Source: Novosphingobium olei (lineage in GTDB: Bacteria; Pseudomonadota; Alphaproteobacteria; Sphingomonadales; Sphingomonadaceae). Taken from it: 64,000 nucleotides of DNA. The notes below the pieces were generated by a model. It was not told the DNA's origin and searched no databases. It saw only the letters and a program-made list of their open reading frames with translations. The position numbers and the translations under genes are program-made. Every line of letters starts with the position of its first letter. Position 1 is the first letter of the stretch. Positions 27,120-28,852 of this stretch are shown in pieces. The stretch is taken from contig NZ_JABBGM010000009.1 in the NCBI RefSeq assembly GCF_012927405.1, positions 1-64,000 of the forward strand, written 5' to 3'.

Positions 27120-27130
27120 GATGCGGAGTT

Positions 27131-27397
27131 AGGCGGCGTGGACAAATTCCGCAACGCCACGGTTACCCTGTAAGAGGCCCCGGCAAGGAGCGAGGCCGCA
27201 GGTGGAGTGAGCCTCCATCAAGGCTGAGCGACGCCGCAGGGGCCTCTTAAAGGGTAACCCCGAAGGGGCTGGAGGCAAAAAGCGCCATCGCAGCGTCGGC
27301 TCGGCTCGCAATATTCCCGATATTGCTCCACCTCGCCTCCTCGCGCTGGCGCTTTTTGCCTCCAGCCGTGGCGCTGTGGAATTTGTCCACGCCGCCT
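27131..27397. repeat. Nested palindromic element forming a three-way junction
   Basis: This 267-base element fills most of the 320-base gap between two minus-strand genes. Outer arms 27131-27162 and 27366-27397 are complementary at 30 of 32 positions (both begin or end with the string GGCGTGGACAAATTCC). Directly inside them are two separate hairpins: stem A, 27161-27181 with 27239-27259 (20 of 21 pairs, 57-base loop), and stem B, 27267-27287 with 27347-27367 (21 of 21 pairs, 59-base loop). Each loop has a smaller palindrome: TGGAG/CTCCA at 27203-27217 and GCAATAT/ATATTGC at 27308-27326. The strand can thus fold as a long stem bearing two arms. No flanking target duplication is visible. Frames across it (such as 27129-27407, minus) look like by-products. 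It may be a MITE-like or structured-RNA element. Confidence 0.8.
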
Positions 27398-27439
27398 GAC
27401 AGGCCATTGCCGGTTGGAACAGGCGCTTATCCGTCCGGA

Positions 27440-28852
27440 TCAGCCGACGAGACGGCGGGCTGCCCTTTCGAACAGGGCGTGGTCTTCGGGCACTTCGCCG
27501 ACCAGCGCGATTGAGCCGTCGGGCAGGCGACGCACCATCACCAGTGCGAATTCAGCGCCGTCGCCGGGCAGGTCGGCCAGCGTTTCGGTCGGCAGCGCGC
27601 GCAGTTCCTCGGCGAGCAGGGCGTGCGGGTCGCGCCGGTCGCGGCCGATCTCGTCGCGCCGCAAGCGGCGTTCGAGCGCGACCACGCCCTTGAGGCCGCC
27701 GGGCGCTTCGGACAGGAACCGCCCGAGTTCGCCGCGCCCCAGGCCAAGGCGCTGGGCATGGCCGAGCGCGGTGGCATATTCGGTGATCCGCGTCTTGTCG
27801 TAATCCGCGCCGAACACGAGCTTGACCAGCGGGGTCAGCGGCGCGCGTTCCTGCATGGTCAGGCCGGCTTCTTCGACCATGCGGCGATAGTCCGCAGGGC
27901 TTGCCTGCGCGGCGAGCGCGAAGTCCCACGCGCGCCCGATCGCGGTGTAGAGCGCGTTGCGGGTGCGATCCTCGCTCGAATTGGCAAGCGTTGCCATTTC
28001 GCGCGCGACGGCGAGCCAGTCGGCGAGCGAGACAGGCGCAGGCGCGGCCGCATCGGCGCCGAATGCCGGCCCGGGAAGATCCGTGCCGGGCAGCGACAGC
28101 GCATCGGCGGGGTCTGGAAAGGCGAGGATCTCCGCGCCGAAATCGGCCAGGTCGAGCGGGCCTGCATCGATCAACCCGTTGGCCGGGGCATCGTCCATCG
28201 CATCGAGCATGGAGGGGCCATCGGCCCAGTCGGCCAGCATCTGGCTCGCCCGTTTGGGCTTAGGCTTGGGCGTGGGTTCGAGCGCCTGTCCGATCTCGAG
28301 CAGGAGTTCGTCGGTCGTGGCCTGGTCGGCCACTTCCTTCCAGTTGATCGCGCCGTAGATGTAATCGATCGAGGTGCCGTTCGAGGTGAAGGGCAGCAGG
28401 ATGCCGCGATAGAGGATGGTCGACCCGCGCTGGTTGACGAATTCGGCCTCGAACCCGATCGGGGCCTGGTTGGCGATGATCTGGAGATAGTGATCGGTAA
28501 TGCGCGAGAGCAGCGACCGGCCAGGGACGTCGCTCAGCCGCTTGAGCGAGGCGTGGGTGCCGCATTCTTCGGCCAGCGCGCGCCCGAGATAGGCGATCGC
28601 CGGATCGTCCATGCCGCGATCGAAGCGCAACAGCACCGAATTGGCGGCAAAATCGGGCAGCTTGCCATCGAGCAGCGTCGCCACCGACGGATAGGGACCA
28701 CTGCCCAGCAGGCTCGCCCAGAAATTGTAGGCGCGCACCTGCATGCGGCGCTCGTCCTGCCCCACGGCAAGCGGCGGCGGCTCGATCGGGTGATCGTCGT
28801 CCGCGAGGTCTAGGTCGCTGCGGTCGCTGTCGAAGCCGCGATAGGTATCCAT
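27440..28852 (-). CDS. PAS-domain protein (PAS_5-like), sphingomonad type
   Basis: A 470-aa soluble protein. Residues ~35-190 (RAYNFWASLLG, LLRFDRG, IGRALAEECG-like region, FEAEFVNQRGSTILYRGILLPFTSNG, YIYGAINWKE) match the PAS_5 type of sensory fold found as single-domain proteins in alphaproteobacteria. A low-complexity Asp/Ala/Pro linker (about 190-270) leads to a helical C-terminal part (270-470) that I do not recognise, with no kinase, cyclase or DNA-binding motif. The protein is acidic and lacks a signal peptide. It may sense a small molecule and act through protein contact. Monocistronic, with the palindromic element 42 bases after its end. Confidence 0.78.
   Translation of the reverse strand: MDTYRGFDSDRSDLDLADDDHPIEPPPLAVGQDERRMQVRAYNFWASLLGSGPYPSVATLLDGKLPDFAANSVLLRFDRGMDDPAIAYLGRALAEECGTHASLKRLSDVPGRSLLSRITDHYLQIIANQAPIGFEAEFVNQRGSTILYRGILLPFTSNGTSIDYIYGAINWKEVADQATTDELLLEIGQALEPTPKPKPKRASQMLADWADGPSMLDAMDDAPANGLIDAGPLDLADFGAEILAFPDPADALSLPGTDLPGPAFGADAAAPAPVSLADWLAVAREMATLANSSEDRTRNALYTAIGRAWDFALAAQASPADYRRMVEEAGLTMQERAPLTPLVKLVFGADYDKTRITEYATALGHAQRLGLGRGELGRFLSEAPGGLKGVVALERRLRRDEIGRDRRDPHALLAEELRALPTETLADLPGDGAEFALVMVRRLPDGSIALVGEVPEDHALFERAARRLVG

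Follow-up and report, generated by a model that had tools for sequence, protein, structure and literature searches.

What kind of sequence fills the intergenic gap at positions 27131-27397 of the 64,000-nucleotide stretch of Novosphingobium olei DNA analysed here (the window) was examined by repeat finding, folding, copy searches and alignment. The first-pass annotation had described a nested three-arm palindrome and offered three candidates for it: a MITE-like palindromic element, a structured RNA in the leader of the neighbouring operon, and a substrate for a REP-associated transposase. It had proposed copy number, empty sites, folding and covariation as the features to check.

Architecture and copies of the element

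The features of the element are given in Table 1. The nested three-arm palindrome was recovered by the repeat finder, while all three arms proved slightly longer than the first-pass annotation had claimed: 35 nt with 91% matching for the outer arms (27128-27162/27366-27400), 24 nt with 92% for hairpin A (27161-27184/27236-27259) and 25 nt with 96% for hairpin B (27267-27291/27343-27367). A fourth small hairpin, absent from that description, joins the two large ones. Folding of the + strand gave -185.8 kcal/mol against a mean of -110.6 for shuffled sequences (z -15.8), with none of 200 shuffles as low; in this form of the proposed folding check the stretch was far more stable than its shuffles.

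Table 1. Features of the miniature element and its target duplicates in the window.
Feature	Coordinates	Strand	Basis
Whole miniature element, 267 bp	27131..27397	none	Full-length copies elsewhere share both edges
Left TA target duplicate, TTAG in the window copy	27130..27131		Aligned empty sites ..CTA^GCAGG in G033 and G109
Right target duplicate, TG in the window copy	27397..27398		TA in the genome's other 7 full copies
Left terminal inverted repeat / outer arm	27131..27162	+	First ~17 bp equal to IS5-family element ends
Right terminal inverted repeat / outer arm	27366..27397	-	Sequence
Hairpin A, read inward from the left end	27161..27259	+	Repeat finding, fold
Small CCCC-GAA-GGGG junction hairpin	27258..27268	none	Sequence
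Hairpin B (unit U), inward from right end	27267..27367	-	Repeats, fold, model
CGTC motif in hairpin B	27294..27297	+	Sequence
Short palindrome at the apex of hairpin B, CAATATTCCCGATATTG	27309..27325	none	Sequence

Covariance model R1 matched hairpin B on the - strand at 27270-27365. The hairpin B model also matched hairpin A in two of the eight copies of this genome (E 2.5e-8 and 5.6e-8), with no match to hairpin A of the window copy itself, and a sequence-only profile of the unit gave no second hit within any of 139 elements at E 1e-4. Hairpins A and B probably derive from a single unit that has since diverged and that lies in opposite orientations in the two; the blocks shared between their loops would be accounted for in this way.

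The search of the element's own genome (4.68 Mb, 44 contigs) with the 267-bp query revealed eight full-length matches with 90-100% identity and one partial, degenerate match of 78%. One element of a second end type is also present (L193, contig C43). A wider search covered 98 genomes, consisting of the own genome, 58 others of the genus and 39 of the order; seven candidates were scored per genome, so that the copy numbers are lower bounds. Matches of any kind were obtained in 13 of the 98, own genome included, all belonging to one of 27 genera, and full-length copies in eight genomes. A fuller search of eight genomes gave up to 32 matching pieces in a single genome. The 41 full-length rows, after removal of nine duplicate rows and one degenerate row, gave an alignment of 31 copies from eight genomes, in which the terminal inverted repeats have common ends; the edges read (C/T)T^AGG...CCT^AG in 16 of the 24 copies displayed. 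The element is multicopy, and the outcome that the first-pass annotation had named as adverse to its proposals, a single copy with no covariation, was not observed. In one aligned copy (L054:3965-4230) the tip of hairpin A is inverted relative to the others, as if flipped between the arms.

The window copy stops 11 bp short of an alpha/beta-hydrolase gene, on its upstream side, and an M48 peptidase gene and a DsbA-like gene follow further on. This location is compatible with the structured-RNA candidate of the first-pass annotation, but it is one among many insertion sites. A 470-codon gene adjoining the element (27440-28852) had no Pfam match at E 0.001. No tRNA or tmRNA was found in the window, and a promoter scan of the element found none.

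Insertion sites and the source of the ends

Empty sites were sought by joining 140 bp from each flank of the eight own copies, with one TA kept, and searching 149 genomes of the genus and then the three closest genomes (G109, G047 and G033). At six of the eight sites the insert was absent in two or three of these three genomes and a single TA was present, which indicates that insertion duplicated the TA. The orthologs without insert called for in the first-pass annotation thus exist for six insertions, one of which (L006) is weaker, having a BLAST match for the right flank only and a junction aligned by MAFFT alone. At L002, L003, L004 and L007 the BLAST alignment was continuous across the empty junction. 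The window site is also a good case: the two flank matches lay too close together in the relatives to hold the insert, the junction reading GGAGCTA^GCAGG in G033 and GCGCTA^GCAGG in G109. The window copy itself reads GGAGTTA[element]TGACAGG, so that its right target duplicate has decayed. For L005 and L008 no readable empty ortholog was found in the three genomes. Across the 15 aligned empty sites 12 conformed to YTAR, the remaining three being ATAA, ATAG and GTAT.

At position 1502 of both L004 and L008, mechanically found open frames (374 and 490 codons, respectively) terminate at a TAG that arises at the left edge of the element. Both frames would fit insertion into a stop codon with the stop kept.

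The ends of the element were also found on transposase-encoding elements. A 1.25-kb piece in genome G002 (L021) carries both ends and a transposase in two frames, with domains PF13340, PF01609 and PF13586 (DUF4096 and DDE_Tnp_1 being names among these). Between its left end and the transposase there is an extra 123-codon frame with hydrophobic stretches (L021:1580-1948). The last 65 residues of the G002 transposase were searched against 99 genomes of the genus, and 27 of the 30 loci returned were examined for paired ends, a match being defined as paired ends with no more than 2 mismatches in 16 to a MITE end type. Matching ends were found at 10 of the 27 loci, all in other genomes. Eight loci, 1158-1263 bp long, carry the end type AGGCSGCGTGGACAAAT or a close variant (L089, L090, L091 and L093-L097), while two (L111 and L118, the latter with weaker end pairing) carry the second end type AGGYYGTRRACYCATAA and are about 50% identical in the query region. 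A further seven loci of about 850-860 bp with paired ends (L103, L105, L107, L110, L113, L116 and L117) were not counted, their ends being 2-7 of 16 bases off the nearest MITE end; L116 and L117 have only 2 differences in 16 but are 850-bp elements. The other 10 of the 27 gave no convincing end pair. PF13586 was matched on short pieces of L094, L097 and L111, two of the three just below the cut-off.

The matching IS elements have TA at both ends, and their transposase occupies two frames in L021 and one frame of 282 codons in L094. In IS elements of the first type, the right end encodes the last residues of the transposase, ..KFVHAA-stop, and its MITE counterpart, the right outer arm read on the + strand, encodes ..EFVHAA-stop. 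Within loci L089 to L118 the hairpin unit was found only at L107, because a MITE sits directly behind the transposase gene there, and the MITE consequently shares only its ends with these IS elements. The L107 copy is complete and follows immediately on the end of the IS5-type gene (around position 1693, genome G015). In the own genome there was no close transposase match (best E 2.3e-10), and present mobility there is putative. The source of the ends is presumably the IS427 group. Elements of that group mostly have 2-bp duplications and ends of 13-21 bp according to Table 2 of PMC3281130, on which the group name is partly based.

The hairpin unit, its fold and competing explanations

Partial matches in other genomes revealed hairpin B, hereafter unit U, between different terminal repeats. 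A covariance model was built from 25 aligned units, giving E-values that are to be read as rough. Of 298 family genomes searched, 42 gave a match, representing 25 of 96 genera; this is a lower bound, as 14 candidates per genome were scored under strict filters. In the search of the class, 7 of 385 genomes matched, own genome included; the unit lies inside an inverted repeat in four of the six others (G615, G698, G561 and G725), while in G790 the match is weak and no inverted repeat surrounds it; the locus of G820 was left out. Unit U occurs in a few other alphaproteobacterial families as well. Two loci in the 1.5-Mb genome G698 (L328 and L334) are single-hairpin versions with yet other ends, of which only one has TAG ends. 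A 21-base apex pattern, derived from this lineage, was found in at least 120 stretches in named genomes. The 80 stretches listed belong to Sphingomonadales or unclassified proteobacterial MAGs, and the matches listed include Novosphingobium, Sphingopyxis, Altericroceibacterium, Tsuneonella, Sphingobium, Parasphingopyxis and other genera, with Sphingomonas sp. IC081 also among them.

Altogether 177 distinct units were obtained from 340 loci, collected by similarity and thus not a random sample. A terminal repeat pair with its left end 8-60 bases before the unit and its right end 40-260 bases after it encloses 150 of them; the other 27 have no terminal repeat at that geometry. The length of the 150 elements is nearly constant, 119 being 264-269 bp and 84 exactly 266 bp, and 105 have (C/T)TA...TA flanks. 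Shorter one-hairpin versions of about 166-175 bp also exist. The ends fall into 9 to 22 groups depending on the cut, some of these being trimming artefacts, with at least six clearly distinct groups of several elements: AGGCSGCGTGGACAAATTCC (33 elements), AGGYCGTAAACTCATAAA-like (41), AGGGTCAGGACCYATTAA-like (33), AGAGCGTCCTGCGATAAATC (6), AGAGCACCTTCCGACC (3) and AGGGCCAGACCCTGC-like (3). Only two end groups were matched to transposase-encoding elements, each to a different IS5-family kind. The second hairpin has a different consensus in the 65 elements that are 266 bp long but carry other ends. Across end types, sharing is demonstrated for unit U alone; the features in common are U, a mini-hairpin, a second hairpin of similar size and the overall length.

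The observations comprise multiple copies with sharp ends and terminal TA, empty orthologous sites and, in other species of the genus, transposase-encoding elements whose ends match. The best explanation, with a probability of about 0.83, is a non-autonomous type II MITE with IS427-like IS5-family ends, in which a conserved folded chassis has repeatedly been given different ends. This bears out the MITE-like candidate of the first-pass annotation through the copy number, the TA duplication, the empty sites and the IS elements with matching ends. As the terminal repeats that flank U in other lineages are different ones, the chassis would repeatedly have taken on the ends of various IS5-family elements or come to resemble them. 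MITEs are usually viewed as the decayed leftovers of one insertion sequence. Here that pattern is reversed, the core unit being conserved while the ends vary, and length and pairing are maintained across genera.

The conservation of the fold was examined with RNAalifold on the 31 copies, which gave 101 pairs, 36 of them changed on both sides, with 97.4% of cells paired. Double-changed cells numbered 233 compared to 59 in shuffles, and in four of five covariation measures none of 500 shuffles was as high; the fifth, the number of pair types, was matched by 48 of the 500. Controls with slid partners gave 2-12 double-changed pairs against the 36 real ones. The outer arm, the stems of hairpins A and B and the two apical stems all carry double changes, so that all three long arms covary, in line with the covariation check proposed at the outset. 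The small helices 4, 6 and 7 had no double change in the 31 copies, although helix 7, the junction mini-hairpin, is paired in 97.8% of cells. The apical palindrome of hairpin B has one double-changed pair in the 31 copies (helix 10) and three in the units compared across end types (helix 3), where 17 of 25 pairs are changed on both sides.

Such covariation could have other origins. The body could be a functional RNA, acting as a terminator, processing site or protein-binding RNA and transcribed from its neighbours, with mobility secondary. The compensatory changes in the long arms and the conserved internal-loop bases are compatible with this, as are the apical pair of the unit, which is G-T in 147 of 174 units, and the excess of G-T over A-C on the U strand (88 against 19 cells at 23 well-paired positions of 177 units). 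The long arms, however, show no G-U excess, with 25 G-T and 42 A-C cells in the 31 copies. Among the pairs predicted on both strands in the 65 elements the polarity of U is weak (G-T 17, A-C 10), that of the second hairpin is reversed (11 against 34), and the outer arms have 24 G-T and 32 A-C. This mixed polarity means that a single transcribed strand is not supported by the base-pair counts; each hairpin, if anything, would read inward from its own end. One terminator-like site was found, on the - strand, but this is about the number expected from shuffles (mean 0.5, sd 0.9), and no Rfam family exceeded its gathering score, the seven matches at E up to 1 all being below it. The functional RNA explanation is considered rather unlikely.

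Arm-to-arm copying, in which hairpin-templated repair or template switching would maintain the palindrome by mutation and produce double changes in one step, is a serious rival, if on balance an unlikely one. Between the copies of one genome (L001-L008) runs of neighbouring bases in hairpin A differ jointly on both arms, intermediates are few (25 G-T and 42 A-C of 2199 cells), and the inverted tip at L054:3965-4230 points in the same direction. Copying alone accounts neither for the conservation of unpaired internal-loop bases across genera nor for the length of 264-269 bp in 119 of 150 elements, and both were therefore counted against it.

The proposal of a REP-associated transposase substrate was not supported. 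That the element is of REP/REPIN type and mobilised by a tyrosine (Y1) transposase is highly improbable: the own genome has no match to PF01797 (Y1 transposase), and the ends, of the IS5-family DDE type, agree with those of DDE insertion sequences that have TA on either side. Single ends do occur by themselves and are able to fold into a small hairpin bearing a TAG foot, but those examined by eye diverge after about 22-38 bases and look like relics, and lone ends as REPs in their own right were rejected on this basis. At L061:3000-3030 and L083:2000-2030 (genomes G027 and G015) near-identical lone ends continue the reading frame of an ORF at its 3' end and supply the tail ..GVAEFVHPA-stop.

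Under the preferred MITE explanation, matching IS5-family transposases supplied in trans would move the element, which would insert at YTAR, typically CTAG, with duplication of TA, by means of ends of about 20 bp. The interior chassis comprises U near one end, the mini-hairpin and the second hairpin, with pairing kept by compensatory change and a length mostly of 264-269 bp. The TAG at each end may let the element sit in a stop codon with the stop retained. A putative role of the fold at the DNA level in joining the ends is favoured; in the most likely mechanism the folded body would bring the ends together, or hold their spacing, on single-stranded or supercoiled DNA. These elements allow the question of whether a folded body aids transposition to be asked directly.

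Relation to CGTC repeats and other known systems

The sequence ATTGCTTCGTCGCTNCGCTCCTCGCAATGACG, which we take to be a stand-alone CGTC-type repeat, was used as a query and was found within 3 mismatches in 15 of 240 genomes of the class, being absent from the own genome. In the region of hairpin B where the window copy has it, CGTC is present in 162 of 177 units. The two halves of ATTGCTTCGTCGCTNCGCTCCTCGCAATGACG recur on the strand complementary to the unit, separated in most cases (162 of 177) by 37-38 bases where the repeat has 5, and both halves match (at least 9/12 and at least 9/13) in 103 of 177 units against 0 of 177 when shuffled. The idea that stand-alone CGTC-type repeats are embedded in terminal repeats was rejected: among the 20 of 30 loci long enough for testing there were no strong terminal repeats, only two weak inverted repeats (scores 14 and 13), and no TAG ends.

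According to PMC3733652, CGTC REPs predominate in alphaproteobacteria, apparently have no transposase dedicated to them and may depend for their mobility on a wide range of other transposases. The stem is described there as 8-9 bp long with A and T paired at its start, followed by a 4-5-base loop and a CCA tail; the unit consensus has a longer, interrupted stem that departs from this description of stem, loop and tail, and unit U is therefore best regarded as related to CGTC REPs in motif and not as a member. Like the CGTC-tagged REPs of that text it is alphaproteobacterial and has the CGTC motif and two shared boxes; unlike them the element is about 266 bp, has terminal repeats and duplicates TA. 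The elements are concrete, testable candidates for the mobilisation of CGTC repeats by various transposases. A broader reading is a superfamily of miniature elements throughout the alphaproteobacteria, in which a selected, folded chassis of about 266 bp with a CGTC-related hairpin repeatedly receives the ends that belong to any IS5-family transposase available. This is put forward tentatively, at somewhat less than even odds. If true, the element would parasitise many transposases, and it would be clear how some CGTC-type hairpins, at least, can spread although they have no transposase themselves.

Searches of the open-licence literature yielded no account of the element, nor of a single MITE core combined with many kinds of ends; a term search of PMC12306157 gave nothing relevant. 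The nearest fixed-length parallel, to our knowledge, is provided by TIMEs. These are described in the accessible part of PMC4133298 as 262-bp elements with Tn3-family ends and 5-6-bp duplications, usually in single copy. Both have a near-constant size, the ends of a transposase-encoding family, conserved core stretches and a predicted stable fold, but here one core is combined with several end types, for which that part of PMC4133298 contains no TIME counterpart. The same source describes ISPsp10 as duplicating TA, with the target supplying a stop codon. The Chunjie, Correia and ERIC MITEs, as portrayed in the accessible part of PMC10969869, resemble the element in being small, palindromic and multicopy, a likeness by description only. 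Agreement in kind is also seen with MITEs that IS5-family (IS427 group) elements mobilise in trans, which likewise have ends identical to those of an IS, duplicate TA at CTAG-like sites and are non-coding and multicopy; what sets the present elements apart from these is the occurrence of the same hairpin unit between several unrelated end groups at near-constant length.
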